Shown: positions 37,181 through 57,359 of the stretch, piece by piece
Position numbering within the stretch: position 1 is the first letter of the stretch
Layout: every line of letters begins with the position of its first letter
Virus record (IMG/VR): IMGVR_UViG_3300022747_000019
Coordinates: 1-61,073 of that record
Length of the DNA stretch: 61,073 nucleotides
Direction: 5' to 3' (one strand)
DNA from: a virus
Notes under the pieces: generated by a model
What the model was told of the DNA's origin: nothing
Database searches by the model: none
What the model saw: only the letters and a program-made list of their open reading frames with translations
Made by a program: the position numbers and the translations under genes

Positions 37181-37378
37181 ATGGCTGGATATTCTAAACA
37201 ATTTTTGATTGATGCGTTTATGAGTCGGTACATTGAGTGCTCGCTCATTAGTATCGAGCAACTCGAAGCGATGGAATCTATGGCCGATAAATTCTATGAT
37301 GAAGTTGGTCGTGATAAGTTCAGACTTTATGCTAGTCTTGATGCTGAGGCAATCAGGGTCTACAAAAATAAGTGTTGA
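37181..37378 (+). CDS. Hypothetical protein, 65 aa
   Basis: MAGYSKQFLIDAFMSRYIEC..., helical. GGAG site. Its stop overlaps the next -35 box. Confidence 0.55.
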   Translation: MAGYSKQFLIDAFMSRYIECSLISIEQLEAMESMADKFYDEVGRDKFRLYASLDAEAIRVYKNKC

Positions 37379-37403
37379 CGTTGATTGCCAATTTTGATAT
37401 AAT
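37375..37403 (+). promoter_or_regulatory. Main promoter of the tRNA array
   Basis: TTGACG, 17 nt, TATAAT at the head of the RNA region. Confidence 0.75.
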
Positions 37404-37712
37404 ATATGTTCTAATTTGATAAATAGCCCGGTGCCTGCGCTTACCAATTATCCCTTTATGGTAATCAGTCCCGTAAAATGCAGCGTAGTGATGGTGGACT
37501 AACCTGTGGCAGTCTAGACCTGAGGGCGGTCGTCCCAACTGGTATTAACCCAGACAAGACATTATAGTGACACTTTAGGGAGTGTCCCTATATTTTAGTA
37601 TAATTGACGGGAACTTTCTGCCTAACGGTTGGTGGAAAGTATCTCGGTGGTTTTGACGGACTGTGAATATCCATAGCGTCAACTATGGAATATATTGATT
37701 GTACTAAAATAT
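37404..37712 (+). ncRNA. Structured RNA with a 14-bp long stem
   Basis: CCTATATTTTAGTA (37587-37600) pairs perfectly with 37702-37715, enclosing hairpins CTTTC/GAAAG, TTGACG/CGTCAA and CATAG/CTATG. Upstream, GACACT/AGTGTC forms another hairpin. The right arm runs 3 nt into the following tRNA-like gene. No coding potential seen. Confidence 0.5.
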
Positions 37713-37892
37713 AGGTCGGTAGCTTAACAAGGCTAGAGCGCAAATCCGGACTACATACCCCCTGAACGTAGATATGCTGACCCTGTGACCGCCGCAACGG
37801 TACATTCAGAAACAGTTCAGCCTGAATTCGAATACATGGCCACGGGATGTAGAATTAATGAGGTGCAGGTTCGATCCCTGCCTGACCTACCA
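37713..37892 (+). tRNA. Interrupted or degenerate tRNA (180 nt between CCA and 5' end)
   Basis: Acceptor AGGTCGG/CTGACCT, D-arm GCTT/GAGC, T-arm GCAGG-TTCGATC-CCTGC and CCA are intact, but about 115 extra nt lie where the anticodon arm should be and no standard anticodon arm is visible. It is too short for a typical group I intron. Confidence 0.45.
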
Positions 37893-38010
37893 TATTTAAA
37901 TTGACTGATTAGTGTAGTGGCAAACACGCAAGGGCCAACATCGTACGCGATATGGTTGGAATCGCCAGTGTAACGTAGGTTCGAATCCTGCATTAGTCAA
38001 TTTAAATATG
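37891..38010 (+). ncRNA. tRNA-like RNA in a 19-bp stem
   Basis: CATATTTAAATTGACTGAT (37891-37909) pairs with 37992-38010 with one wobble. Inside are a D-arm (GTGT/ACAC) and a T-arm (GTAGG-TTCGAAT-CCTGC), but the anticodon region is replaced by a CCAAC/GTTGG hairpin and no CCA follows. Confidence 0.5.
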
Positions 38011-38092
38011 GGCGTGTGGTGTAATTGGTAGCCACGCTGGTCTTAGAAGCCAGTGCGTAAGCGTGTCAGTTCGAGTCTGACCATGCCCACCA
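38010..38092 (+). tRNA. tRNA-Leu (TAG)
   Basis: Acceptor GGGCGTG/CATGCCC, anticodon arm CTGGT-CTTAGAA-GCCAG, class II variable arm, CCA. Serves the CTA codons frequent in the phage. Confidence 0.93.
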
Positions 38093-38184
38093 TATTTAAG
38101 TGATCTGGCTTGGCCAGCGGCGAGAGACTGTGGCTCCGGTGAATGCCACCTTTTGTGACGCAGTAACAGATTACTTAAATATGG
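38090..38184 (+). ncRNA. Long-stem RNA element
   Basis: CCATATTTAAGTGATCTG, beginning at the CCA of tRNA-Leu, pairs with 38167-38184 (18 bp, one G-U). The loop holds CTGGC/GCCAG and GTGGC/GCCAC hairpins. From 38185 to 38348 there is no gene; GTGACGCA there could pair alternatively with TGCGTCAC near 38261. Confidence 0.5.
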
Positions 38185-38348
38185 GTCAAAACGAAAGATA
38201 CCAACCCGAACTAACACGGGAGAACACAGCCATTTAGCAGAGGACGGGAAAGTCTGCTTTGCGTCACGGATGCTTGACATTCGCAGATATTGGTGAATAA
38301 TGTAATTCTTAAAATGAAGTTAGTACCCATAACTAATTAAAGGTAATT

Positions 38349-38489
38349 ATGAAAGTCTATACTAAATTGAATGGCAAGCTAGCTTGTTGGGATGTAGAGG
38401 CCAATAACTATGGTTTTGCAATTAAACTTGTACGAGACGAGCTAGGTGTAGGACACAAACCAGCAATCCTAGCACTAGTAAAGTATTGA
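38349..38489 (+). CDS. Small hypothetical protein, 46 aa
   Basis: MKVYTKLNGKLACWDVEANN...VGHKPAILALVKY with AAAGG upstream. Unknown. Confidence 0.6.
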   Translation: MKVYTKLNGKLACWDVEANNYGFAIKLVRDELGVGHKPAILALVKY

Positions 38490-38559
38490 TTTCTGACCTT
38501 GCTTCCGCCGACAGGTCTCTATATCGGGGAGATTTCGCACTACTCTAAAAAGTGTATAT

Positions 38560-38638
38560 CCGAGTATAGGAAAGTCTGGCTCAATCCGCCACTTTTGGGA
38601 AGTGGAGATCGAAGGTTCGAATCCTTCTACTCGGACCA
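38560..38638 (+). tRNA. tRNA-Pro (TGG)
   Basis: Acceptor CCGAGTA/TACTCGG, anticodon arm CCACT-TTTGGGA-AGTGG, T-loop TTCGAAT, CCA. Confidence 0.88.
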
Positions 38639-38664
38639 CCTCGACCAAATTTTGATTTGTAAAA

Positions 38665-38693
38665 TTTTTCCACACATGGTATAATATTTATAT
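38665..38693 (+). promoter_or_regulatory. Promoter of the HNH gene
   Basis: Approximate position: TTGTAA, 17 nt, TGGTATAAT (extended -10). Confidence 0.6.
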
Positions 38694-38708
38694 CGGCTGG
38701 GAGATTTT

Positions 38709-39218
38709 ATGAGTAAAAATTTAACTAATAAACTCTTTGATACATTAGAATCAGGAGATTTATTTATATATGTAGATGACTCGCTTGCTATTGCACAAGT
38801 ATTGTCTAAATTGGGTTTTTCCAATAAAGGCCAATATGGGCAAATAGTAAGGCAGTTTCTGCACGATAACGAGATAGACACCTCACATTTTACACCAAAT
38901 GGTAGACCTTTAGTACCAAAAATCAAAAAGATTTGCCCTGTGTGCAATTCTAAGTTCAAAACTGAACCTAGAAAAGAAAGTGAACAGATAACTTGTTCTA
39001 GAAGTTGTAGTAATACCTATTTTAGAACTAAAGATGGTGCTAGTTCTTACCGCGATCGTGCATTAAAGCACTATGGTTGTAAATGCCAAAAATGCGGATT
39101 TAATAATGTACTCGCATTAGAAGTTCATCACATAGACAAGAATAGAGAGAATAATTCTATCGACAATTTAGCAGTTTTATGTGCTAACTGTCATAGGATT
39201 GAACATGGAACCGCCTGA
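38709..39218 (+). CDS. HNH homing-type endonuclease
   Basis: 169 aa. CPVCNSKF...CSRSCSN is a zinc finger; CQKCGFNNVLALEVHHIDKNRENNSIDNLAVLCANCHRIEH is a full HNH domain with HH, N and H. Own promoter, AT-rich codons and position in the tRNA array mark it as a mobile free-standing nuclease. A CCGCCTG/CAGGCGG hairpin follows the stop. Confidence 0.88.
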   Translation: MSKNLTNKLFDTLESGDLFIYVDDSLAIAQVLSKLGFSNKGQYGQIVRQFLHDNEIDTSHFTPNGRPLVPKIKKICPVCNSKFKTEPRKESEQITCSRSCSNTYFRTKDGASSYRDRALKHYGCKCQKCGFNNVLALEVHHIDKNRENNSIDNLAVLCANCHRIEHGTA

Positions 39219-39228
39219 TACAGGCGGA

Positions 39229-39416
39229 CCATTTTAGTTTGTATACTGCTAGAACACCGATTCAGTTGCGGGGCTTTGCATACTTGAGACTCATAGCACC
39301 TAGGAAGGCTTATGGGAGATAGTATGAATCTTGATATAGGTGGGCGTCATAAACCTGGCAAATCAAGATCACATCCTTAGCGGGATGGGCAGTAAACAGT
39401 ATGCAAACTAAAATGG
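39229..39416 (+). ncRNA. Long-stem RNA element, largest of the array
   Basis: CCATTTTAGTTTGTATACTG pairs with 39397-39416 (20 bp, one G-U). The 148-nt interior has nested stems ATCTTGAT/ATCAAGAT, CATACT/AGTATG and CATCC/GGATG. Right arm runs 2 nt into tRNA-Ala. Confidence 0.55.
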
Positions 39417-39489
39417 GCTGATAGTGATAATGGGAGCACAGTGGCTTTGCAAGCCTCGGGCGGGAGTTCGATCCTCCCTCGGTCCACCA
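39415..39489 (+). tRNA. tRNA-Ala (TGC)
   Basis: Acceptor GGGCTGA/TCGGTCC with wobbles, anticodon loop TTTGCAA, T-arm GGGAG-TTCGATC-CTCCC, CCA. Confidence 0.85.
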
Positions 39490-39504
39490 TCTTTAGGAAA
39501 TGAT

Positions 39505-39630
39505 ATGAAAACACGAAAACCTAGGAATCACGTTGCCTTAGCTTTAATGAAGCGTGGCGGCAGTGGTTCACATACAAAATCGCACAAGCAGTTGCGAAGA
39601 AAACTCAACCGAGAAGGTTGGGACGGCTAA
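39505..39630 (+). CDS. Small basic phage protein, 41 aa
   Basis: MKTRKPRNHVALALMKRGGSGSHTKSHKQLRRK...: a short basic protein type found in many phages near tRNAs. AGGAAA site upstream. Possibly nucleic-acid binding. Confidence 0.65.
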   Translation: MKTRKPRNHVALALMKRGGSGSHTKSHKQLRRKLNREGWDG

Positions 39631-39631
39631 T

Positions 39632-39706
39632 GGACGCATAACTTAACGGCTAAAGTATCTGGCTTTTAACCAGGAAATCAGAGTTCGATTCTCTGTGCGT
39701 CTACCA
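39632..39706 (+). tRNA. tRNA-Lys (TTT)
   Basis: Acceptor GGACGCA/TGCGTCT, anticodon arm TCTGG-CTTTTAA-CCAGG, T-loop TTCGATT, CCA. Confidence 0.92.
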
Positions 39707-39785
39707 TATAAAAATACACTAGAATCACTGGTCAAGTCCAGTCAAGTTGTAGTTTAGTGAAAAACGCTAGTGTGTTTCTATATGG
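39704..39785 (+). ncRNA. Long-stem RNA element
   Basis: CCATATAAAAATACACTAG starts at the CCA of tRNA-Lys and pairs with 39767-39785 (18 of 19, incl. one wobble). The start codon of the next gene (39782) lies inside the right arm. Confidence 0.55.
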
Positions 39786-39946
39786 TACAAAACTACACAG
39801 TAGTTCGTGCCCGTGATATGGCAGAACTTATAACAAAAGTTAATGCCCTCATTGCTATGGGATGGCAACCACAAGGCTCTATTGCAGTTGATCCTATTAA
39901 TCATCTGTATTTACAAGCTATGTGGACAGAAATGACGGCCCTATAG
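39782..39946 (+). CDS. DUF1737-like protein
   Basis: 54 aa. YTVVRARDMAELITKVNALIAMGWQPQGSIAVDP matches the DUF1737 pattern (VV...L...VN..I..GW.P.G). Start codon is in the long stem above and the stop lies 10 nt inside the next tRNA. Confidence 0.75.
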   Translation: MVQNYTVVRARDMAELITKVNALIAMGWQPQGSIAVDPINHLYLQAMWTEMTAL

Positions 39947-40028
39947 TTTAACGGTAAAACGGCGGATTTATATCCCGTAAGCAACAGATAATTGGTTCAT
40001 CTGGGTTCGATTCCCGGTGGGGCTACCA
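39937..40028 (+). tRNA. Class II-like tRNA, apparent anticodon TAT (Ile?)
   Basis: Acceptor GGCCCTA/TGGGGCT, anticodon loop TTTATAT, long variable arm CAGAT/ATCTG, T-arm CTGGG-TTCGATT-CCCGG, CCA. A long variable arm is unusual for isoleucine, so isotype is uncertain. Confidence 0.75.
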
Positions 40029-40033
40029 AATAT

Positions 40034-40405
40034 ATGAATACAAAACAAAAAGGTAACGCGGGTATAGGGGCAGCAATAGCTTACTTTACTCGTCAAGGCC
40101 ATAATGTACTAATACCGTTAACAGACAGTCAAGATTATGATTTAATCATAGATATTGACGGGTTTTTAAATAAAGTACAAATTAAATATACTACACAAAA
40201 AGCACCTTCTGGAAATTATTTAATCGCTCTGAGAAGCATTAGTGGTTCTAGCGGTAAAGCTTACAAAACAGTATCTGAAACAGATATTGATTATTTATTT
40301 TGTGTAACTGAAAATAACGATTGTTATTTGTTACCTATTACGGATTTAACAAATAGTAACTGTATTACTATTACTTCCGAATTTAGTAGTAAATATAAAG
40401 TATAA
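40034..40405 (+). CDS. PD-(D/E)XK homing-type endonuclease
   Basis: 123 aa. MNTKQKGNAGIGAAIAYFTRQGHNVLIPLTDSQDYDLIIDIDG then KVQIKYT: the D...xVQxK core of group I intron-type PD-(D/E)XK nucleases. Starts 5 nt after a tRNA CCA, without an obvious ribosome site. AT-rich; likely a selfish gene targeting tRNA DNA. Confidence 0.78.
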   Translation: MNTKQKGNAGIGAAIAYFTRQGHNVLIPLTDSQDYDLIIDIDGFLNKVQIKYTTQKAPSGNYLIALRSISGSSGKAYKTVSETDIDYLFCVTENNDCYLLPITDLTNSNCITITSEFSSKYKV

Positions 40406-40406
40406 T

Positions 40407-40494
40407 GGAACACTGGCCGACCGGTTAAGGCATTTGATTGCTAATCAAACATTCAGTAATGGGTGAGTAGGTTCGATTCCTACGTGTTCCGCCA
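40407..40494 (+). tRNA. tRNA-Ser (GCT)
   Basis: Acceptor GGAACAC/GTGTTCC, anticodon arm TTTGA-TTGCTAA-TCAAA, long variable arm, T-loop TTCGATT, GCCA. Confidence 0.93.
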
Positions 40495-40501
40495 AATTTA
40501 T

Positions 40502-40578
40502 GCAGGGAATAGTGTCAGTGGCAAGCACACTTGTCTGTGAAACAAGAAGTCAGGGATCGAAACCCGTTCTCCTGCCCA
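40502..40578 (+). tRNA. tRNA-His (GTG)
   Basis: Extra G-1 opposite C73 as in genuine tRNA-His, anticodon arm CTTGT-CTGTGAA-ACAAG, CCA. T-loop begins ATCGAAA rather than TTCG. Confidence 0.88.
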
Positions 40579-40585
40579 AAATATT

Positions 40586-40795
40586 ATGAACATTCAAGAA
40601 TTACTAGATAAAGAAGCCAGTTTAGGCAATCGTCGTTATCATGTTATTCAGCAAATCAAAGCAGAGCGTGGTACAGAACCTCCTCGTTGCTGGGGTATGG
40701 ATGACTGTTCAATTCAAATTATGAGTACTTGCCCTTGGCGTATAGATTGTGGTGATTACGAAGCGACTCACTGGCAGGAAAAACAGCCTTGGTAA
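40586..40795 (+). CDS. Small Cys-containing phage protein, 69 aa
   Basis: MNIQELLDKEASLGNRRYH..., then CWGMDDCSIQIMSTCPWRIDCG with four Cys that may bind a metal. Resembles small phage proteins of unknown role. Confidence 0.6.
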   Translation: MNIQELLDKEASLGNRRYHVIQQIKAERGTEPPRCWGMDDCSIQIMSTCPWRIDCGDYEATHWQEKQPW

Positions 40796-40801
40796 GTATA
40801 C

Positions 40802-40877
40802 GCAACTCTAGCTGATGTGGTCATAGCGGCGGTCTGAAGAGCCGTTGAAACAGGTTCGATCCCTGTGGGTTGCACCA
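40802..40877 (+). tRNA. tRNA-Phe (GAA)
   Basis: Acceptor GCAACTC/GGGTTGC, anticodon loop CTGAAGA, T-arm ACAGG-TTCGATC-CCTGT, CCA. Confidence 0.92.
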
Positions 40878-40932
40878 GAATTTTTGGTTGAAGTATCGCA
40901 CTTCGATCTTTTTAGCTAAAAAAGGAAATCAT

Positions 40933-41208
40933 ATGATTAAAACTAAAGCAACTGATGCTGGCAAGGTTGGTGGAAACTACCCAGCAGGCGAAACCCTAAC
41001 AGGTACTGAAAAGACTCGTGTTGGTGGTCAAATGCCTTCTACAGACCCACTACCAACTATGGCCGACCAATTCCCTTGGTTAACTGCCACAGCTTCTGCT
41101 CAAACTGCTCAAGCACAAGATTCACAAACATTACCAATGTTTAGTCCAAGTGCTGGTTTCACAGATACCGGCGCTTCTAGCACTGGCGATCTAGGTGGAG
41201 CAGCTTAA
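40933..41208 (+). CDS. Hypothetical protein ending GDLGGAA, first of a pair
   Basis: 91 aa, low complexity (Thr, Ala, Gln, Pro), with AAAGGA upstream. Its C-terminus STGDLGGAA is nearly repeated by the next gene. Possibly a small structural protein; unknown. Confidence 0.55.
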   Translation: MIKTKATDAGKVGGNYPAGETLTGTEKTRVGGQMPSTDPLPTMADQFPWLTATASAQTAQAQDSQTLPMFSPSAGFTDTGASSTGDLGGAA

Positions 41209-41209
41209 T

Positions 41210-41431
41210 ATGGCCACGGATCGTACTAATATACCAGTTACTGGCGTACACCTTGTCAGTAACAACATGGCAATTGCACATACACCGGCATACTTAGTAG
41301 ATAATCCAGTAGGTCTAGCAGTAGAAGGTACTTCTACTCCTAATGCTGGACTGTCTGTATTTATGAATCCTGTTGAAGGAAACGTAGATACTGGCGTAAG
41401 CCATGAAGGTGATTTAGGCGGAGCCGCTTAA
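41210..41431 (+). CDS. Hypothetical protein ending GDLGGAA, second of a pair
   Basis: 73 aa from ATG 41210. Beta-type composition; C-terminus HEGDLGGAA like its neighbour, suggesting a shared recognition tail. AGGTGGAG upstream. Confidence 0.55.
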   Translation: MATDRTNIPVTGVHLVSNNMAIAHTPAYLVDNPVGLAVEGTSTPNAGLSVFMNPVEGNVDTGVSHEGDLGGAA

Positions 41432-41438
41432 TTTACCT

Positions 41439-41462
41439 AATAGCCCTAGCAATAGGGCTATT
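41439..41462 (+). terminator. Terminator
   Basis: AATAGCCCTA-GCAA-TAGGGCTATT stem-loop after the gene pair. Its 3' flank merges into the next long stem. Confidence 0.75.
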
Positions 41463-41535
41463 TAATATAGAGACTGGTGTTGTTATGGTGGAACAACTAA
41501 AGGGACGCCCAATCCCAACAGTCTTTATATTAAAT
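41460..41535 (+). ncRNA. Long-stem RNA element
   Basis: ATTTAATATAGAGACTG pairs with 41519-41535 (17 bp, one G-U). Inside are GTTGTT/AACAAC and GGG/CCC hairpins, giving a three-way junction. It ends 4 nt before tRNA-Glu. Confidence 0.55.
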
Positions 41536-41539
41536 ATAT

Positions 41540-41614
41540 GCTCCCGTCGTCTACTGGCTAGGACGCTGCCCTTTCAAGGCGGAAAAGACGGATCGAAACC
41601 GTTCGGGAGTACCA
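41540..41614 (+). tRNA. tRNA-Glu (TTC), second copy
   Basis: Acceptor GCTCCCG/CGGGAGT, anticodon loop CTTTCAA, CCA; T-loop ATCGAAA. Confidence 0.88.
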
Positions 41615-41619
41615 ATTAC

Positions 41620-41695
41620 ATCCTATTCATCTAGAGGCCAAGGATAACTGGTTTTCATCCAGTTCACGTCGGTTCGAATCCGGCATAGGATGCCA
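41620..41695 (+). tRNA. tRNA-Glu (TTC), third copy
   Basis: Acceptor ATCCTAT/ATAGGAT, anticodon arm ACTGG-TTTTCAT-CCAGT, Glu-type D-arm (TTCATCTAGAGG), CCA. Confidence 0.88.
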
Positions 41696-41748
41696 GAACT
41701 CGCCTGACTGGTGGCGTACAATGAGATAAGTAACCAGTCACAAATTTC

Positions 41749-41823
41749 ACTGATGTAGCTCAGCGGCAGAGCAATCGCTTGATAAGCGATAGGTCGAGGT
41801 CTCGGAATCCTCCATCAGTACCA
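41749..41823 (+). tRNA. tRNA-Ile (GAT)
   Basis: Acceptor ACTGATG/CATCAGT, anticodon arm ATCGC-TTGATAA-GCGAT, CCA. The T-loop is enlarged (GAGG-TCTCGGAAT-CCTC), so it may be defective. Confidence 0.8.
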
Positions 41824-41924
41824 AAACAATCATGCAGGTAGATAGACGCCAGAATGATCTTTAGTCCAATAGTGTTTATGGCTAATAACTATACACCTTT
41901 TTACACATCACACAAGGAATTATT

Positions 41925-42152
41925 ATGAATCCATTTGAAATCCGCGCTCAGCTGATTGAACAAGCTGCTGACTTCCTAAAGCGTCAGCACGAAATCAATA
42001 CTGAGTTCGCTAAGAAAACATTCGACGAACTGGTTAAGCAAGGCCAAAAAGTGCAAGCCGATTACAAAGCATACATGCCAGAAATGTATAGCTTTGAAGA
42101 CGTTATTGCTCAGGCTGAGAAGCTATACGGGTTTGTCAAAAATGCTAAGTGA
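41925..42152 (+). CDS. Conserved-type small phage protein, 75 aa
   Basis: MNPFEIRAQLIEQAADFLKRQHEINTEF..., helical. The MNPFEIR start recurs in many large phages without known function. AAGGA upstream. Confidence 0.65.
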   Translation: MNPFEIRAQLIEQAADFLKRQHEINTEFAKKTFDELVKQGQKVQADYKAYMPEMYSFEDVIAQAEKLYGFVKNAK

Positions 42153-42303
42153 GTTAATGAGCCGTGTGCAGGAAATGTTCAAGCCCTACACATTAGATCA
42201 ATTCATAGCAGACGGTAATCCACAAGATCATAATGACGTTCAGCGTCTAGAAAGAATCTGGCAGGATTATCAGAACAAGCGTTTATTCAACACTTGTTAT
42301 TGA
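42142..42303 (+). CDS. Small hypothetical protein, 53 aa
   Basis: MLSELMSRVQEMFKPYTLDQFI..., with a helix DVQRLERIWQDYQ. Overlaps the previous stop by 11 nt. Confidence 0.6.
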   Translation: MLSELMSRVQEMFKPYTLDQFIADGNPQDHNDVQRLERIWQDYQNKRLFNTCY

Positions 42304-42311
42304 ACATATAT

Positions 42312-42382
42312 CGCGGTGAGTCAGGGTAGAAGCAAGTCTCATAAGCTCCGCTTAGATGGTTCGAGTCCATCCACCGCAACCA
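42312..42382 (+). tRNA. tRNA-Met (CAT), initiator-like and short
   Basis: C1-A72 mismatch (CGCGGTG/CACCGCA) is the initiator hallmark; anticodon loop CTCATAA; T-arm intact; CCA. Only 71 nt: the D-arm and anticodon stem are reduced, so function is doubtful. Confidence 0.65.
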
Positions 42383-42415
42383 AAACCAGTGCAGCTGCGA
42401 TGATTAAGATCGCAC

Positions 42416-42490
42416 GGAAATATAGCACAGCGGTAGTGCACATCCTTCATACGGATTAGGTCGGGAGTTCGAATCTCTCTATTTCCACCA
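42416..42490 (+). tRNA. tRNA-Met (CAT)
   Basis: Acceptor GGAAATA/TATTTCC, D-arm GCAC/GTGC, anticodon loop TTCATAC, T-loop TTCGAAT, CCA. A TGCGAT/ATCGCA hairpin precedes it. Confidence 0.88.
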
Positions 42491-42505
42491 CAAAAAATAT
42501 TGGCT

Positions 42506-42534
42506 TGTTTTAAAATGCCAAAGCCTGTATAATT
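42506..42534 (+). promoter_or_regulatory. Promoter
   Basis: Approximate position: TTGTTT, 17 nt, TATAAT. Confidence 0.55.
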
Positions 42535-42588
42535 ATTGTTTTCGGTGAGAGAAGTAAAGTTACAATGAACAGATTCTGAAATTTGTAC

Positions 42589-42617
42589 TTGTTCTCTCAT
42601 TGATTTTCAAGTATAAT
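42589..42617 (+). promoter_or_regulatory. Promoter of the long-stem RNA before Ro60
   Basis: TTGTTC, 17 nt, TATAAT. Expected start near 42624 coincides with the first base of the long stem below. Confidence 0.7.
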
Positions 42618-42622
42618 TTATA

Positions 42623-42870
42623 CTTAAATTAAACACTCTGACCGTAGCGACAGAAGTCAGTTACTTCATAACTTAAAGTACTATGATGTAACGACTATAC
42701 CGCCGAATTGGTCGCGGCTGTGAAACCTAAGGGCTTGTTCCCGTTCACATTAATCTAGGTAGTGAGCAATACACTTAAAAATAAGAAGTGGTTTAGGTAA
42801 AGCAACCACTTTAATCAAAAACTCCAGAACTGTTTTCGAACATTCTCGGTTTAGTGTGTTTAATTTAGGT
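42623..42870 (+). ncRNA. Candidate Y-type RNA: about 245 nt, paired ends
   Basis: A 14-bp helix joins 42623-42636 with 42856-42869 (two wobbles). Interior hairpins: CTGAC/GTCAG, GTTAC/GTAAC, CCGC/GCGG, GTGAA/TTCAC and AGTGGTT/AACCACT. Paired 5' and 3' ends next to a TROVE gene are the Y RNA layout. The Ro60-binding consensus was not confirmed. Confidence 0.5.
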
Positions 42871-42990
42871 ATAGTGAAAGAAACAGCTACTTCTGACTGT
42901 TAATCAGGGAGTCTAGGTTCGAATCCTAGCAGGTCGTCTTAGATCTGTAATGTAATGGTAGCATCCTTCCGTTCTGTTTCGCCTTGTTCT
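42871..42990 (+). ncRNA. Permuted tRNA-like RNA (Asn-type), candidate YrlA-like Y RNA
   Basis: In order: anticodon arm TCTGA-CTGTTAA-TCAGG (42892-42908, GTT), T-arm CTAGG-TTCGAAT-CCTAG (42913-42929), acceptor 3' strand CAGGTC (42930-42935), loop GTCTTA, acceptor 5' strand GATCTG (42942-42947), D-arm ATGT-AATGGTA-GCAT (42950-42964). This is a tRNA with its acceptor ends joined and opened between D and anticodon arms. GAAACAG (42880) can pair CTGTTTC (42974) to close it. It ends in the leader of the Ro60 gene. YrlA Y RNAs carry such tRNA-like modules. Confidence 0.7.
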
Positions 42991-43011
42991 TATCTATTTA
43001 AAAGGAATCAA

Positions 43012-44322
43012 ATGTCTTCGATCAATCGTGTTGTTCGTACACCTGCATTTAACTCTGTGGGTACAAAAGTGCCTGCTATTAATGCAGAGCGTCAACTAAA
43101 GCGTGTTACTCTTGCAGCTATGCTGTGGGATAATCAGTTTTATCTTGATGGTAAAACTCACGCAGAACTGGTCAAAGACCTTGTGGCTAAAGTCGCTCCT
43201 GAAAAGGTAACGGCTCTAGCTGAGGAAGCCCGTACAAAGTTCAAACTGCGTCACATTCCTCTGTTGCTTGCCCGCGAGCTTGCTCGAAACGGAAAACTGC
43301 AAGCAAACGCGTTGACTAATGTCATTCAGCGTCCAGACGAAATGTCTGAGTTCCTGTCCATTTATTGGAAGGAAGGCAAATCTGCTGTGTCGAACCAGGT
43401 TAAAAAAGGCTTAGCGGCTTGTTTTAACAAGTTCAATGAGTACCAGCTTGCCAAATGGAATAAGAACTCTGCCGCAATCAAATTGCGTGATGTGATGTTC
43501 ATTTCCCACCCTAAACCGCAAAATGCCGAGCAAGAGGCGCTTTTCAAGCGCATCGCGGCTGATACACTTGAGACACCAGACACATGGGAAACTCAACTAT
43601 CTAGCGGCGCAGATAAGTGTGGTACGTTTACCCGTCTTATGACGGAAAAGAAACTAGGAGCCCTAGCTTTCTTGCGTAATCTGCGTAATATGCGCGACAG
43701 TGGTGTTTCGGATTCCCTTATCCGTAGTTATGCATCTACTGTTGACGTTAGCAAAGTCCTGCCATTCCGCTATATTGCGGCGGCTCGTATTGTACCACAA
43801 TACGAAGACATGCTAGAAACAATGATGTTCCGTAGCCTAGCTACACATCAAAAAATCCCTGGAAAGACAGTCTTGTTAATCGACGTTAGCGGCAGCATGT
43901 TCGGTACCAAGATTTCCGCAAAATCAGATCTAGATCGCTTCGATGCGGCAGCAGCACTCGCTATGTTGTGCCGTGAAGTATGCGAAGAAGTCGAGATTTA
44001 TAGCTTTAGTAACAATGCTGTGCGTGTCGCACCTCGTCGCGGATTTGCTCTCCGTGAAGCTATTACAAACTCTCAAGGTCACGGTGGAACTGCCTTAGGC
44101 AATTCCATGAAGACTGTGAACGGCAATGGTTCGTATGATCGTTGTATCGTGTTCACTGACGAGCAAAGCTATGATCGCCCAGGTGCTCCTCGTGGCCGTG
44201 GTTACGTTGTTAACGTAGCAAGCTACCAAAACGGAGTTAACCATAGTGCATGGACAGAGATTAACGGCTTTAGCGAGTCTGTTATCGACTATATCCAAGC
44301 CTTGGAGCAGGAAGCTGCTTAA
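43012..44322 (+). CDS. Ro60/TROVE-domain protein with vWA domain
   Basis: 436 aa from ATG 43012 (AAAAGGA upstream). Residues about 1-280 are helical repeats of a TROVE ring (LARELARNGKLQANALTN, AFLRNLRNMRDSGVSD). Residues about 280-430 are a von Willebrand A fold with MIDAS (LLIDVSGSMFG, GGTALG, FTDEQSYD). Ro60 orthologues bind Y RNAs and misfolded RNA and can tether them to polynucleotide phosphorylase. Candidate tRNA-mimic RNAs lie on both sides. Some other phages with tRNA arrays also carry Ro60. Confidence 0.9.
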   Translation: MSSINRVVRTPAFNSVGTKVPAINAERQLKRVTLAAMLWDNQFYLDGKTHAELVKDLVAKVAPEKVTALAEEARTKFKLRHIPLLLARELARNGKLQANALTNVIQRPDEMSEFLSIYWKEGKSAVSNQVKKGLAACFNKFNEYQLAKWNKNSAAIKLRDVMFISHPKPQNAEQEALFKRIAADTLETPDTWETQLSSGADKCGTFTRLMTEKKLGALAFLRNLRNMRDSGVSDSLIRSYASTVDVSKVLPFRYIAAARIVPQYEDMLETMMFRSLATHQKIPGKTVLLIDVSGSMFGTKISAKSDLDRFDAAAALAMLCREVCEEVEIYSFSNNAVRVAPRRGFALREAITNSQGHGGTALGNSMKTVNGNGSYDRCIVFTDEQSYDRPGAPRGRGYVVNVASYQNGVNHSAWTEINGFSESVIDYIQALEQEAA

Positions 44323-44384
44323 TTAACTTACCCACGACCCAAGCCTGTAGCCAGTCAGGTGTTAGAAAGGTGGGGCTCTAAGCT
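44323..44384 (+). other. Short hairpin region after Ro60
   Basis: CCCAC/GTGGG encloses CCTG/CAGG between 44330 and 44375. No T tract, so probably not a terminator. Confidence 0.35.
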
Positions 44385-44481
44385 AAGGGCTTAGATTAGC
44401 ATATGGTGCACAAGTACAGTTACTTCTATTTGGTTTGAAAACACACTGTACTTACTTATTCCTATGTTAATCTAAGCCCTT
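44385..44481 (+). ncRNA. Candidate Y-type RNA after Ro60
   Basis: AAGGGCTTAGATTAGCATA pairs with 44463-44481 (19 bp, one G-U). After an internal loop a 9-bp stem AAGTACAGT/ACTGTACTT closes a 24-nt loop. Stem-loop-stem RNA of 97 nt with paired ends, directly downstream of the Ro60 gene. Confidence 0.55.
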
Positions 44482-44489
44482 TGTGTTTT

Positions 44490-44587
44490 TAACAGATACA
44501 TCCTCCAAAAACCGCCCAACTCGCGGTTCTACCGGCTGTGACGGGAGTCCAGCCTCTGTTATTGTTGTTCAAGGGTTTAACCTTTAT
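44490..44587 (+). ncRNA. Three-way-junction RNA segment
   Basis: AACAGA/TCTGTT encloses ACCGC-ccaactc-GCGGT and GGCT/AGCC hairpins. Possibly part of the next RNA. Unassigned. Confidence 0.35.
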
Positions 44588-44723
44588 TGCTTTGGCGATA
44601 GTTGCAGTTTCATCAAAAGTTCGATTCTTTTATTTCCAGCCAAAAATTTTTGGAAATTCGCCAAGTGGTATGGCACCGGAACTGATAATCCGGCAAAAAC
44701 TCTGTAACGCCCTATTCCAAGCA
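44588..44723 (+). ncRNA. Permuted tRNA-like RNA (Ile-type), candidate Y RNA
   Basis: In order: T-arm AAAAG-TTCGATT-CTTTT (44615-44631), acceptor 3' strand ATTTCCA (44632-44638), discriminator G and CCA (44639-44642), linker AAAATTTT, acceptor 5' strand TGGAAAT (44651-44657, 7 of 7 pairs), D-arm GCCA-AGTGGTA-TGGC (44660-44674), anticodon arm CCGGA-ACTGATAA-TCCGG (44676-44693, GAT, 8-nt loop). Ends close by GTTGCAG (44601) with CTGTAAC (44702), plus TGCTT/AAGCA. Opened in the variable region, unlike the Asn-type copy. Confidence 0.75.
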
Positions 44724-44726
44724 TTT

Positions 44727-44800
44727 ATCTCGCTAGTGTAATGGCAGCATACCGGTCTCCAAAACCGTTGGTCGGGGTTCGAGTCCCTGGCGGGATGCCA
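44727..44800 (+). tRNA. tRNA-Trp (CCA)
   Basis: Acceptor ATCTCGC/GCGGGAT, anticodon loop CTCCAAA, T-loop TTCGAGT, GCCA. Its 3' end starts the 161-bp duplication. Confidence 0.9.
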
Positions 44801-44810
44801 AATTTTAGAT

Positions 44811-44839
44811 TTGTCGCGGATTGCTTTTTGCGATATAAT
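44811..44839 (+). promoter_or_regulatory. Promoter between tRNAs
   Basis: TTGTCG, 17 nt, TATAAT; repeated at 45037-45065 in the second copy. Confidence 0.7.
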
Positions 44840-44852
44840 TATTCTTTAAATC

Positions 44853-44936
44853 GGAGTGAACGGAACAACGGTGTTCTAGCGGGCTGTAACCCCGTGGCCT
44901 TATGGTAGGTAGGTTCGATCCCTACTCACTCCACCA
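44853..44936 (+). tRNA. tRNA-Tyr (GTA), copy 1
   Basis: Acceptor GGAGTGA/TCACTCC, anticodon arm GCGGG-CTGTAAC-CCCGT, class II variable arm, CCA. Confidence 0.93.
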
Positions 44937-44942
44937 AATTAT

Positions 44943-45026
44943 GGGACTGTGGTGTAATAGGTAGCCACAGGAGACTTAAAATCTCCCGCCTTGTGCGTGC
45001 CGGTTCGAGTCCCTGGCGGGATGCCA
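44943..45026 (+). pseudogene. Chimeric tRNA-Leu (TAA) with tRNA-Trp 3' end
   Basis: Positions to the T-loop match the intact tRNA-Leu at 45266 (loop CTTAAAA, same variable arm), but from GGTTCGAGTCC onward it is the 3' end of tRNA-Trp. The acceptor (GGGACTG vs GCGGGAT) and T-stem no longer pair, so it is probably non-functional. Confidence 0.8.
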
Positions 45027-45078
45027 AATTTTAGATTTGTCGCGGATTGCTTTTTGCGATATAATTATTCTTTAAATC

Positions 45079-45162
45079 GGAGTGAATGGAACAATGGCGT
45101 TCTAGCCGGCTGTAACCCGGTGGCCTTATGGCAGGTAGGTTCGATCCCTACTCACTCCACCA
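45079..45162 (+). tRNA. tRNA-Tyr (GTA), copy 2
   Basis: As copy 1, with substitutions such as anticodon stem CCGG/CCGG that keep pairing. Confidence 0.92.
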
Positions 45163-45163
45163 G

Positions 45164-45257
45164 TTTTCTTTAACGTGCTGACTTTCTGAGTTAGATTCAA
45201 TGGAGGGCTGATTTGAATCTCAGCCAAGACTTAGTGTAAGCGGCACGTTAAAGAAAA
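45164..45257 (+). ncRNA. Long-stem RNA element
   Basis: TTTTCTTTAACGTGC pairs perfectly with 45243-45257 (15 bp). Inside, CTGA(gtta)GATTCAA pairs TTGAATCTCAG. Between tRNA-Tyr and tRNA-Leu. Confidence 0.6.
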
Positions 45258-45265
45258 TTACAAAT

Positions 45266-45349
45266 GCGACTGTGGCGTAATTGGTAGCCGCAAGGGACTT
45301 AAAATCCCTCGCCTTGTGCGTGCCGGTTCGAGTCCGGCCAGTCGTACCA
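45266..45349 (+). tRNA. tRNA-Leu (TAA)
   Basis: Acceptor GCGACTG/CAGTCGT, anticodon arm AGGGA-CTTAAAA-TCCCT, class II variable arm, T-arm GCCGG-TTCGAGT-CCGGC, CCA. Confidence 0.93.
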
Positions 45350-45353
45350 TATT

Positions 45354-45429
45354 GGGTCTAAAGTGTTCATGGACGCACGCGGCACTGTCACTGCCGAAGA
45401 GTGGGGATCGTTACCCCCTAGACCCGCCA
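45354..45429 (+). tRNA. tRNA-Asp (GTC), divergent T-loop
   Basis: Acceptor GGGTCTA/TAGACCC, D-arm GTGT/GCAC, anticodon arm CGGCA-CTGTCAC-TGCCG, GCCA. T-loop is ATCGTTA in a GGGG/CCCC stem instead of TTCGANY; the same loop occurs in tRNA-Gly at 48876. Confidence 0.72.
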
Positions 45430-45518
45430 AAACCTGCCTTAGGTCCGTGTCGTTCCGGTTAGAGCGTCCGTAACTCATCCGTTGGATACGATAAGTCCAA
45501 GCTGGAACCGTAACCAGC
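45430..45518 (+). ncRNA. Unassigned structured spacer
   Basis: GCTGG-AACCGTAA-CCAGC hairpin, plus ATCC-GTT-GGAT and a GGTCCG word. tRNA-like in parts but no acceptor stem. Confidence 0.3.
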
Positions 45519-45623
45519 ATAATTAATTCTAGCGAGAATGCGCTATAGTGTGTAGGTTGATTTCCTCCTTCCGTCAACTGAAGCTCACTCGGGGATTGCG
45601 CACCGGGCGCTAGAATTAATTAT
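45519..45623 (+). ncRNA. Long-stem RNA element
   Basis: ATAATTAATTCTAGCG pairs perfectly with 45608-45623 (16 bp). Inside are TGCGC/GCGCA and GTTGA/TCAAC stems. Confidence 0.6.
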
Positions 45624-45634
45624 GAGGAACATAA

Positions 45635-45814
45635 ATGACTCCAAATAACATACGAGAACTGCTACTTCCCTTAGTTGGAGAAGATTTAGTAGATTCTTGG
45701 TATACTAGCCCTAACAAGGCTTTTGATAATAAAACTCCTGAACAGATGTTCGAGGAAGGTAAGCGCAAAGAAGTCTTTGATTACCTTATCGCGCAAATGG
45801 ATCAAGGTAGTTAA
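45635..45814 (+). CDS. Small protein resembling MbcA/ParS/Xre toxin-binding domain
   Basis: 59 aa. SWYTSPNKAFDNKTPEQMFEEGKRKEVFDYLI matches the C-terminal antitoxin pattern (W...PN.AF...TP.......G....V...L). No HTH and no adjacent RES-type toxin gene, so perhaps an orphan anti-toxin-system decoy. GAGGAA upstream. Confidence 0.65.
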   Translation: MTPNNIRELLLPLVGEDLVDSWYTSPNKAFDNKTPEQMFEEGKRKEVFDYLIAQMDQGS

Positions 45815-45822
45815 CCGAATAT

Positions 45823-45897
45823 TCCAGAGTAGCACAGCGGTAGTGCAGTTGACTGTTAATCAATTGGTCGTAGGTTCGATCCCTGCCTCTGGAGCCA
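45823..45897 (+). tRNA. tRNA-Asn (GTT)
   Basis: Acceptor TCCAGAG/CTCTGGA, anticodon loop CTGTTAA, T-loop TTCGATC, GCCA. Confidence 0.93.
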
Positions 45898-46029
45898 GAA
45901 TTTTTAGTCTTAGCGACTTGATTAGTTACTTCTTTTTACTTTTAATAAAAACGACTGGGGTTCGATTCCCTGGAGGCCGCTGGTGCATGGGCCAATTTCT
46001 AATCTATCTATTCTAGACTAATTTCATGT
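45898..46029 (+). ncRNA. Spacer with orphan T-arm and imperfect long stem
   Basis: CTGGGG-TTCGATT-CCCTGG near 45951-45970 is a complete T-arm without matching acceptor. Flanks TTAGTCT/AGACTAA can pair. Possibly a decayed tRNA or another tRNA-like RNA. Confidence 0.35.
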
Positions 46030-46103
46030 TGGGGAATGGTGTAATGGTAGCACTTGTGATTTTGATTCAGACAGTCTAGGTTCGATCCCTAGTTCCCCTG
46101 CCA
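46030..46103 (+). tRNA. tRNA-Gln (TTG)
   Basis: Acceptor TGGGGAA/TTCCCCT (first pair U-U), D-arm GGTGTAATGGTAGCAC, anticodon loop TTTTGAT, T-loop TTCGATC, GCCA. Confidence 0.88.
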
Positions 46104-46116
46104 CCTAATCTAATAA

Positions 46117-46193
46117 CCGTCTTTAGCACAACTGGAAAGTGTCCTGGCCTACGAAGTCATGGGGTGGGAGTTCGAATCTCTCAGGACGGACCA
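46117..46193 (+). tRNA. tRNA-Arg (ACG)
   Basis: Acceptor CCGTCTT/AGGACGG, anticodon loop CTACGAA, T-loop TTCGAAT, CCA. A34 would need deamination by host TadA. Confidence 0.88.
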
Positions 46194-46199
46194 TATATC

Positions 46200-46670
46200 A
46201 TGCGTAAATTTAACATTGAAGAAGTGAAAGAGTTCATTCGTAATTCTAGTCCTGAAACTAAGATTTATCTTGGTGCGGATTCAGAACGCGTTATGGCACA
46301 CGGAAAATGGTACGCTGATTATACCTTAGCTATTGTTGTACACATTGATGGTAAACATGGCTGTAAGATTTTCGGTGACGTTCAACGTGAAAGAGATTGG
46401 GATCAAAAAGCTAATAAGCCTTCTATGCGTCTAATGCAAGAAGTTTATAAGATTAGTGATTTGTTCCATGAACTGTCAGACGTTCTAGAAGATCGTTATG
46501 TTGAAGTTCACTTGGATATTAACCCTAATGAACGGTATAAATCCTCAGCAGTTGTACAACAAGCTGTTGGATATATCAAAGGCACTTGTAACATTGATGC
46601 ACAAGTTAAGCCAAAAGCCTTCGCAGCTTCCTATGCTGCGGATCGTTTAAAATTTGTATTGAGTAATTAA
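46200..46670 (+). CDS. RNase H-like YkuK/DUF458 family protein
   Basis: 156 aa. IYLGADSERV, YTLAIVVHIDG, VEVHLDINPN, SSAVVQQAVGYIKG and KPKAFAASYAADRL follow the DUF458 (YkuK) RNase H-like pattern with conserved acidic residues. Begins 6 nt after tRNA-Arg. Confidence 0.75.
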   Translation: MRKFNIEEVKEFIRNSSPETKIYLGADSERVMAHGKWYADYTLAIVVHIDGKHGCKIFGDVQRERDWDQKANKPSMRLMQEVYKISDLFHELSDVLEDRYVEVHLDINPNERYKSSAVVQQAVGYIKGTCNIDAQVKPKAFAASYAADRLKFVLSN

Positions 46671-46671
46671 A

Positions 46672-46875
46672 ATGACTGATAGATTTGATCTTGAGCAGAA
46701 TATTATGCAATGCTGGAATGTTTGTGATGACATTCAGCTAATGCTTGATAGCTGGGATAAGATGACTGAAGACGAGAAGCAGAACTTGCTAATCGGAGTG
46801 AAGCAAATGTATCAGTTGAAGTTTGAAAAGTGCTGGGACAACTTTGAAAAGTGTGTCAGTACAAGACAGATTTAA
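46672..46875 (+). CDS. Small acidic phage protein, 67 aa
   Basis: MTDRFDLEQNIMQCWNVCDDIQLML...; this small family is common in large phages. One nt after the previous stop. Confidence 0.65.
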   Translation: MTDRFDLEQNIMQCWNVCDDIQLMLDSWDKMTEDEKQNLLIGVKQMYQLKFEKCWDNFEKCVSTRQI

Positions 46876-46876
46876 T

Positions 46877-46952
46877 GTTGGTGTGACCCGAACGGTGAGG
46901 GCCCGGATTGCAAATCCGTAGTATGCAGGTTCGAGTCCTGTCACCAACTCCA
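46877..46952 (+). tRNA. tRNA-Cys (GCA)
   Basis: Acceptor GTTGGTG/CACCAAC, anticodon arm CGGA-TTGCAAA-TCCG, T-loop TTCGAGT, TCCA. Begins 1 nt after a stop codon. Confidence 0.93.
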
Positions 46953-46953
46953 T

Positions 46954-47028
46954 GCCGGTTTAGCTCAGTGGTAGAGCATCCGCCTTGTAAGCGGGAGGTC
47001 GTAAGTTCAATCCCTACAACCGGCACCA
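46954..47028 (+). tRNA. tRNA-Thr (TGT)
   Basis: Acceptor GCCGGTT/AACCGGC, anticodon loop CTTGTAA, T-loop TTCAATC, CCA. One nt after tRNA-Cys. Confidence 0.93.
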
Positions 47029-47113
47029 TATTTTAGCACTTTAGAAGCCCACGCCTGTGCACAGGTACGTGAATGTGGTTACGACGCTTGTCCGTTAGAG
47101 TGCTAAAATATGG
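47026..47113 (+). ncRNA. Long-stem RNA element abutting the tmRNA
   Basis: CCATATTTTAGCACT starts at the CCA of tRNA-Thr and pairs perfectly with 47099-47113. Inside, CACG-CCTG-TGCA-CAGG-TA-CGTG forms a hairpin. The tmRNA acceptor piece starts right after it. Confidence 0.6.
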
Positions 47114-47172
47114 TTGTATGAAGCAGACAGAAAAGTGTTCTGGACGCGGGTTCGACTCCCGCCATCTCCACC
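47114..47172 (+). ncRNA. ssrA: Permuted tmRNA, acceptor piece
   Basis: Carries the T-arm GCGGG-TTCGACT-CCCGC (47146-47162), the acceptor 3' strand CATCTCC (47163-47169), discriminator A and CC(G). CATCTCC pairs with GGGGATG at the start of the coding piece (7 of 7, one G-U). It precedes the coding piece, the gene order of two-piece tmRNAs. CTGGACGCGGGTTCGACTCC is typical of tmRNA 3' ends. CCA is not fully encoded (CCG). Confidence 0.88.
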
Positions 47173-47241
47173 GAAGCATACTGAGCCGACTGTAGAATTC
47201 AGTAAGCATTTAGGGAAGATCCACGTTTAGTGTGTTTCGTT
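47173..47241 (+). other. tmRNA intervening segment
   Basis: 69 nt expected to be removed from the precursor to give the two mature pieces. No gene. Confidence 0.6.
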
Positions 47242-47430
47242 GGGGATGTCATGGTTTCGACAGGGCAAAGAGTAAACAAGTAGACAACTCGGCAATGTAG
47301 AAGCCGTAGGGTTGGGTAACCGGCCGCAGAAGCAAAACAAAAATAAACGCAAACGAATCAGTTTACGCATTAGCAGCTTAATTGCCGCTTAGGGTTTTTG
47401 TCGGTTCCTCGTAACAGAATACCGACTCTA
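47242..47430 (+). ncRNA. ssrA: Permuted tmRNA, coding piece
   Basis: Starts GGGGATGTCATGGTTTCGACAGGG (tRNA-like 5' half). The tag frame at 47349-47381 encodes A-N-E-S-V-Y-A-L-A-A then TAA, with the resume GCA in an AAACGCAAACGA context. The GTCGGT/ACCGAC hairpin lies near the 3' end. Together with SmpB it rescues stalled ribosomes and adds the tag that directs products to ClpXP-type proteolysis. The 3' end is approximate. Confidence 0.9.
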
Positions 47431-47441
47431 TTAAGGAATTT

Positions 47442-48056
47442 ATGAAAAAACGAAGTATACTTGACCCTAAGCTGTTCCAAGAGGACGGTAGTAGCAATAG
47501 CTTTACTAAAACAGTAGCAAGAACTCATGAATTCTACCTAAGCGGCCCTATTGAGGACGCAGAGAATTATATTGATTGGTTTGATACCATTCGTAATGCT
47601 AGTAGTAATGATGCTATCCGTATTTACATTAACTCACCTGGTGGCGATCTTTATACTACGCTACAGTTTTTACGAGTTATGAGTGATACAGAAGCCCATG
47701 TAACTACTAGTGTTGAAGGCGCTTGTATGAGTGCCGCAACTATGATCTTCTTGCATGGACACGCACAAGAAGTAACTCCACACAGCCTGTTTATGTTCCA
47801 CGATTATTCTAGTGGCACTTTTGGCAAAGGTGGAGAACAGTATGACCAGATTCAGTTTGAACGTCAATGGTCTAAGAAATTTATGTCGGAAGTTTATAAA
47901 GACTTCTTGACCGACTCCGAAATCGAATCCATGATGCACAATAAAGACATTTGGATGGATTCTGACGAAGTAGTCAAGCGTTTAACTACGCTCGCTGAAA
48001 AGCGAAACAAAGATTTGGGTGATGATGCAGCTGGGAAGGCCGGCGACCAGCCTTGA
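47442..48056 (+). CDS. clpP: ClpP-like serine protease
   Basis: 204 aa. IYINSPGGDLYTTLQFLRVM is the oxyanion-hole region, SVEGACMSAATMIFLHG carries the catalytic Ser, and TPHSLFMFHDYSSGTFG the His; the Asp is likely in the later helical part. AAGGAA upstream, 11 nt after the tmRNA. Natural partner of tmRNA tagging. Its last 13 codons lie inside tRNA-Ser(TGA), and its TGA stop is the anticodon. An alternative role is prohead-type processing, but position argues against it. Confidence 0.88.
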   Translation: MKKRSILDPKLFQEDGSSNSFTKTVARTHEFYLSGPIEDAENYIDWFDTIRNASSNDAIRIYINSPGGDLYTTLQFLRVMSDTEAHVTTSVEGACMSAATMIFLHGHAQEVTPHSLFMFHDYSSGTFGKGGEQYDQIQFERQWSKKFMSEVYKDFLTDSEIESMMHNKDIWMDSDEVVKRLTTLAEKRNKDLGDDAAGKAGDQP

Positions 48057-56317: not shown

Positions 56318-56367
56318 AATCTGATTCGATAATATTGTCGAGTCGCAACAACGAAAGGAGTTTTCGT

Positions 56368-57345
56368 ATGAAAAAAGAGTTTGGCGTCTTTATTGGACGC
56401 TTTCAGCCCTGCCATGAAGGTCACGTTCATGCGCTGGGTGTAGCCGCTAGTCAGGTAGAGACTTTGATTGTGTTGGTTGGTTCTGCTAACCGCGCTCGAT
56501 CAATTAAGAATCCTTGGACATATACAGAACGTGTGCAATTGCTTCGTAAGAAGTTGCGTACTGCTGGTGTAGAGAACGTGGATTTCATGCCTGTTAACGA
56601 CTACGCATATAATGATGAACAGTGGATTTCGGATGTTAAGGTAACAGTACGATCACGTACTATCTATACTCCAGTGCTGTTTGGGCATACTAAAGAAGGT
56701 AATAACTATCTCAAGTGGTTCCCAGAATGGGAATTCCGCGAGATTAATTCAGAGTATCAGATCAATGCAACGCAAGTTCGTACTGCAATGCTGAAATCAG
56801 AGCATCCCGATATGCCTGATACTGTGAAAGCTGACTGGAAGTTCTATGAGAAAGAGCGTGAGCTGTTTGCTAACTATCCTTTCCCAGAAACTCTTAACTT
56901 CAACTGTAGCGATGCAGTTCTAGTTTGCCAAGGTAAAGTTTTGCTTATTCAGCGTAAACACGCTCCAGGCCAAGGTGCTTGGGCATTGCCAGGCGGTTTC
57001 AAGAACGCTAAGGAAAATTTCCTAGATTGTGCTATCCGTGAGTTGCAAGAAGAAACTAATGTGCGAGTGCCTGAAAAGGTTCTTCGTGGTTCAGTAGTGA
57101 GTCAACAACTATTTGATTCACCTACTCGCAGTTTCGGTCTTCCACGTAACACAATGGCTGTACTAATTAAAGTCCAGCCTGACCCAGACGGCAAGCCTCC
57201 GCGTGCTAACGCGGCAGACGATGCTCAGCACACAGAGTGGGTTGATATTGTCGATGCACTCAACAATTACCGTCTGTATGATGACCATGCAGACATTATT
57301 TCCAAAATGACAGGCACAACTGCCTATCCAGCATTCATTTACTAA
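56368..57345 (+). CDS. nadM: Bifunctional NMN adenylyltransferase / Nudix hydrolase
   Basis: 325 aa from ATG 56368 (AAGGAG upstream). Residues 1-170: nucleotidyltransferase with GRFQPCHEGHVHAL (GxFxPxHxGH) and INATQVRTAM (ISxTxxR-like). Residues 185-325: Nudix box GGFKNAKENFLDCAIRELQEETN (GX5EX7REX2EE-type). Joins NMN and ATP to NAD+; the Nudix half may clear ADP-ribose. Next to NAMPT, forming a two-step salvage route. Confidence 0.93.
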   Translation: MKKEFGVFIGRFQPCHEGHVHALGVAASQVETLIVLVGSANRARSIKNPWTYTERVQLLRKKLRTAGVENVDFMPVNDYAYNDEQWISDVKVTVRSRTIYTPVLFGHTKEGNNYLKWFPEWEFREINSEYQINATQVRTAMLKSEHPDMPDTVKADWKFYEKERELFANYPFPETLNFNCSDAVLVCQGKVLLIQRKHAPGQGAWALPGGFKNAKENFLDCAIRELQEETNVRVPEKVLRGSVVSQQLFDSPTRSFGLPRNTMAVLIKVQPDPDGKPPRANAADDAQHTEWVDIVDALNNYRLYDDHADIISKMTGTTAYPAFIY

Positions 57346-57359
57346 GTAAGGAGCTTACT

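Follow-up and report, generated by a model that had tools for sequence, protein, structure and literature searches.

The viral DNA analysed here, hereafter the window (IMG/VR record IMGVR_UViG_3300022747_000019, a virus of bacteria, positions 1-61,073, that is 61,073 nucleotides), carries a circularly permuted tmRNA at 47112-47426 on the plus strand, recognized by ARAGORN, by Rfam and by direct reading, and immediately followed by a gene for a ClpP-family serine protease, an arrangement which recurs in many related viruses. Judged from its sequence, the tmRNA is a genuine and probably functional two-piece molecule of the betaproteobacterial type. The conserved tmRNA-clpP order, which ties the tag to an enzyme of degradation in the same viruses, makes the role of the phage tmRNA testable with two genes. 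The locus comprises the following features:

47112..47172, plus strand: acceptor piece of the tmRNA, from the RF04321 and RF01850 alignments and direct reading, containing the P2 5' strand GGTTGT, the T-arm and, by direct reading, the acceptor 3' strand CATCTCC (47163-47169), the discriminator A73 (47170) and CC (47171-47172)
47173..47241, plus strand: intervening spacer of 69 nt, directly read and predicted to be excised on maturation
47242..47426, plus strand: coding piece of the tmRNA, from ARAGORN, Rfam and direct reading, with a putative mature 3' end, containing the acceptor 5' strand GGGGATG (47242-47248), the resume codon GCA, the tag, the stop codon and a 3' hairpin (47400-47426)
47349..47381, plus strand: tag reading frame ANESVYALAA (codons 47349-47378) and TAA (47379-47381), from ARAGORN and direct reading
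47433..47438, plus strand: AAGGAA, putative clpP ribosome-binding site, located where the beta model has its terminal helix
47442..48056, plus strand: ClpP-family serine protease of 204 aa with the triad S97-H120-D169, from phrog_1827, Pfam and the fold

ARAGORN reports a permuted tmRNA* at 47081-47472 with the tag ANESVYALAA, and the Rfam family RF04321 (tmRNA_permuted) matches 47112-47381 over its full model (1-213) with 122.1 bits against a cut-off of 47 (E 2.3e-23). The family RF01850 (beta_tmRNA) reaches 119.6 bits against a cut-off of 84 (E 7.8e-36) and, as the best clan model above its cut-off, assigns the gene to the betaproteobacterial subtype. The original prediction of a permuted, phage-encoded two-piece tmRNA of beta type, for which a covariance model of permuted forms had been named as the check, is thus confirmed by ARAGORN and by both families; the acceptor half upstream of the coding half, the 69-nt spacer, the 7 of 7 pairing and the tag ANESVYALAA followed by TAA can all be read directly, and the span proposed at that time, 47114-47430, designates the right locus with a 5' end placed about 2 nt too late. 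A one-piece reading was rejected, given the permuted gene order and the lack of any one-piece model among the Rfam matches.

The acceptor strands GGGGATG and CATCTCC pair over 7 of 7 positions and display G3-U70 together with A73, the G3-U70 pair being an identity element for alanyl-tRNA synthetase. The tag frame ends in a proteolysis signal directly before the stop codon. According to the minimum free energy fold, the spacer is predicted to pair with itself and to prolong the acceptor stem (CGAAGCATACT/AGTGTGTTTCG), and the precursor fold beats 100 of 100 shuffles (z -4.7). Among the permuted phage tmRNAs that were read, the acceptor stem is paired at 7 of 7 positions in 102 of 122; script mispicks account for some of the misfits, and a portion of the set was retrieved with a pattern fixing part of the acceptor strand. 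Position 3 is a G-U pair in 14 of the 16 distinct stems, and positions 4 to 6 differ among stems, many of which retain the pairing. The 3' hairpin is also present in relatives. Depending on the phage, the acceptor piece ends mostly in CCA, and in some cases in CCG or CCT. In the window the third 3'-terminal base is a G (CCG), so that a host CCA enzyme would need to complete the incompletely encoded end. It is very likely that the tmRNA is functional.

At the junction with the protease gene, AAGGAA and then the clpP start codon, located 60 nt downstream of the tag stop, come after the hairpin 47400-47426. No terminator-like site was found in this junction, which, together with AAGGAA and the clpP start, makes it likely, on the sequence, that the tRNA array, the tmRNA and clpP are transcribed together. 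Co-transcription is not universal, since one lineage with abutting genes (L184, L196-L205) possesses an intervening terminator. The need for host maturation of both tmRNA pieces, as proposed previously, can soundly be inferred.

The protease matches phrog_1827 (E 6.8e-63) and Pfam CLP_protease. In alignment with solved ClpP, its residues S97, H120 and D169 fall on the catalytic triad, in columns that are invariant in 51 relatives, and the AlphaFold single-chain model (mean pLDDT 86) matches ClpP structures of the PDB. With this Ser-His-Asp triad and the ClpP fold, it belongs to the ClpP protease family (S14). A function as head protease was rejected, a separate head protease occurring at 9881-11863.

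Three baits served to estimate how often a tmRNA precedes clpP: an exact T-arm pattern in IMG/VR, the window ClpP (family A) and a ClpP of a second family (family B), about 30% identical to family A. The contigs gathered in this way are close relatives, and the counts therefore refer to related viruses and not to independent events. The T-arm pattern retrieved at least 119 viral stretches with a tmRNA, in most cases a permuted one. ClpP is present in 28 of 50 records of this bait, and 24 of the ClpP-holding records exceed the RF04321 cut-off; in all 24 both genes lie on the same strand, with clpP 0.3-3.1 kb downstream in 18 and farther away or in the opposite order in the remaining ones. One of these 24 records (G077) is called one-piece by ARAGORN. 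The family A bait returned 80 contigs, of which 9 with too little upstream sequence were set aside; a permuted tmRNA occurs directly upstream of clpP on the same strand in 53 of the 71 informative contigs (39 abutting, 14 upstream at 0.2-2.3 kb), the others having it elsewhere in the record (4) or not at all (14). With family B, a permuted tmRNA is located 1.07-2.53 kb upstream of clpP, on the same strand, in 57 of 58 informative contigs. Permuted tmRNAs located near clpP are all on the same strand and nearly all upstream. On a tree of ClpP, which contains many weak branches, the adjacency label is clustered, yet requires 12 changes. No phage record near-identical to the window was found.

The gene order is found in two kinds of viruses. 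The window-like phages, with contigs of about 100 kb in which no T4-type Gp23 capsid gene was found, display a tRNA array, the tmRNA, clpP and further tRNAs, the tRNA order around the tmRNA-clpP pair being likewise conserved. The larger genomes of the gapped layout, which possess Gp23, consist at this place of the tmRNA, small secreted or outer-membrane-like proteins, a putative SleB-type hydrolase and then clpP. Since the order recurs in both kinds of viruses with two ClpP families, it argues for more than simple inheritance. In the T4-type phages, the gene read as a SleB-like hydrolase precedes clpP at L037 5173-6269, L012 4261-5329 and L178 7492-8675, and the clpP slot holds family A or family B as if they had been exchanged. 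A search for a cultured phage with abutting tmRNA and clpP had no success; the isolates that come closest, XacN1, Phosso and BUCT-ZZ01, whose ClpPs are nearest to families A or B, possess a permuted tmRNA and keep the two genes apart. The jumbo phage XacN1 (AP018399) contains two identically scoring permuted-tmRNA matches, 37231-37530 and 356026-356325, near both genome ends and thus probably within a terminal repeat. Where cultured phages lack an adjacent tmRNA, clpP occurs near phoH in several of them (L220, L223, L225, L229, L217).

No phage-encoded SmpB was detected in 47 records, control genomes matching as expected, and ClpX-type AAA genes exceed the cut-off in only 2 of these 47, so that SmpB, the unfoldase and the maturation enzymes must be supplied by the host, and the binding of phage ClpP to host ClpX or ClpA is an assumption. 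The best explanation, in which we place somewhat better than even confidence, is a phage module for tagging and degradation that would operate with host SmpB and presumably with host ClpX or ClpA. It is suggested by the gene order, the intact acceptor stem with G3-U70, the tag frame, the spacer, the lack of a terminator-like site, the intact ClpP triad and the recurrence in relatives. Host RNase P and 3' processing enzymes would excise the spacer, host tRNA nucleotidyltransferase would complete the CCA end, and host alanyl-tRNA synthetase would charge the tmRNA, which host SmpB would then carry to ribosomes stalled on mRNA broken by phage or host RNases during infection. The ribosomes would be released and the protein fragments would end up bearing ANESVYALAA. 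In the least certain steps, the tagged fragments might be degraded by the phage ClpP, either by itself or in mixture with the host's ClpP, under the drive of host ClpX or ClpA, and their amino acids might return to viral synthesis. Considered separately, the functional link between tmRNA and ClpP falls slightly short of an even chance. It is proposed more tentatively still that permuted tmRNA and ClpP form a portable module in several large-phage lineages, a matched pair of viral tag and protease by which ribosomes and amino acids would be recovered from broken mRNAs, either in the course of infection or following an RNase-based host defence.

A rather unlikely but serious alternative holds that the tmRNA is functional and that its adjacency to clpP is an inherited synteny without functional link, ClpP acting on other proteins in host takeover or viral quality control. 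Each gene does occur without the other: ClpP of the window family is common in phages without tmRNA, no tmRNA match being found in ten more distant ClpP phages (ICP1, T5-like, rv5-like, Barba and others), and the Menderavirus phages have a tmRNA without ClpP. The conserved local tRNA order also favours such synteny, and ClpP of jumbo phages has been proposed to act on host proteins (PMC7824862); nevertheless, both the recurrence of the order in T4-type genomes without tRNA array, whichever of the two ClpP families (about 30% identical) is present, and the uniform strand and nearly uniform upstream position of the neighbouring permuted tmRNAs speak against this alternative. It is very improbable that the tmRNA interferes with host trans-translation as a decoy or as an inhibitor, titrating SmpB for instance, in the manner of the tag-less tmRNA of phage DS6A, which comprises little beyond the tRNA-like domain, a type of molecule that inhibits tmRNA (PMC4131195, PMC11915505), since the window tmRNA has its tag frame, resume codon, stop codon and acceptor stem intact and relatives retain the full tag. 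A recently captured host gene or a functionless pseudogene, as the betaproteobacterial sequence type and the incompletely encoded CCA might suggest, appears highly improbable in view of the permuted tmRNAs with intact acceptor stems in many divergent viral contigs and of the CCT or CCG ends of other phage tmRNAs.

The capture from a betaproteobacterium that had been put forward would fit the sequence type, and many related phages already have the tmRNA gene. In a bacterial comparison, made on too small a set, a match over the cut-off occurred in 1 of 185 and 2 of 46 genomes, and an exact T-arm scan of bacteria yielded, in distant groups, nothing but one-piece tmRNAs or no call.

Other RNA and protein features of the window deserve a mention, among them:

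47025..47114, plus strand: long-stem hairpin (arms of 19 nt, loop of 52 nt) that separates tRNA-Thr from the acceptor piece of the tmRNA
42955-44322: TROVE/Ro60-like gene

About eleven hairpins with outer stems of 15-21 bp occupy the spacers of the tRNA array (37587-47114), compared to 0-1 in shuffles. Orthologous families of these array hairpins occur in relatives with compensatory changes, 13 of 29, 12 of 37 and 18 of 29 pairs being changed on both sides (controls, 0 of 500 shuffles). No Rfam match was obtained for the array hairpins except for the tRNA-like core of 37890-38011, and a one-motif search of the stems gave nothing above chance because they differ in sequence. The 20-bp hairpin at 37890-38011 encloses a tRNA-like sequence without ARAGORN call (41.8 bits with the Rfam tRNA model, 37903-37999), whose acceptor stem would thereby be extended. 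The hairpin 47025-47114, with homologues in 4 contigs, is possibly a processing stem or a separate small RNA. The slot directly before the tmRNA is occupied by one or another of at least two hairpins that are unrelated but have the outer stem ACCATATTTTAGCAC/GTGCTAAAATATGGT in common; the family represented by the window hairpin, L152 7899-7988 and L141 7410-7501 is located upstream of the tmRNA in some phages, whereas in another it separates the tmRNA from clpP. Two covarying families of long hairpins flank the TROVE/Ro60-like gene, 42619-42873 upstream and 44385-44481 downstream. Of 339 loci, the same 14 and no others contain this gene and the latter family, which lies directly downstream of it; the former family lies directly upstream in 12 of the 14, one of the other two (L158) being cut off there; these hairpins are candidate Y-RNA-like partners of the phage Ro60. 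In addition, adjoining NUDIX/nucleotidyltransferase and nicotinamide phosphoribosyltransferase genes at 56335-58754 suggest a NAD salvage pathway.

The idea that phage tmRNAs are one-piece, expressed in the original prediction and consistent with the phage tmRNA list of 2014 (PMC4131195), is outdated. Two-piece molecules account for 53 of 133 distinct phage tmRNA structures (PMC9004378, 2022), they occur in cultured Stenotrophomonas, Xanthomonas, Sinorhizobium and Synechococcus phages, and they predominate among the IMG/VR matches, which corrects the idea of the two-piece tmRNA as an exception in phages. The tmRNA-clpP neighbourhood, in which the original prediction had left the clpP gene unmentioned, appears to be new, phage two-piece tmRNA being already known; in the open-licence papers, no literature linking phage tmRNA with ClpP was found. 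For phage tmRNA, the authors of the Melnitz study suggested the upkeep of the hijacked machinery and the selective degradation of host proteins (PMC9004378).

Compared to known systems, the window shares with the phages ICP1, T5-like and rv5-like the protease family phrog_1827, whereas these phages have no tmRNA in the genomes tested and their clpP often lies beside phoH. The Menderavirus ssrA (Stenotrophomonas phages Mendera, Moby and Bhz51) is also permuted and located in a tRNA cluster beside tRNA-Thr, but differs by its ARAGORN tag VAANDDSYTVRIAA and by the lack of ClpP in the two genomes tested. A permuted tmRNA with a degradation tag, presumably in need of host SmpB as in the window, is also found in marine phages, among them the Methylophilales phage Melnitz; unlike that of the window, the Melnitz tmRNA is of alphaproteobacterial lineage, is associated with a glutamine riboswitch and precedes a transcription coactivator, and ClpP is unmentioned in the paper (PMC9004378). 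Finally, the permuted ssrA of betaproteobacteria (RF01850) resembles the window tmRNA in its tRNA-like domain, its piece order and its tag type ANxxxxALAA, whereas at the window locus the promoter-like leader (consensus TTGAC...TATAAT) is unmatched and the place of the final helix is taken by the clpP ribosome-binding site.
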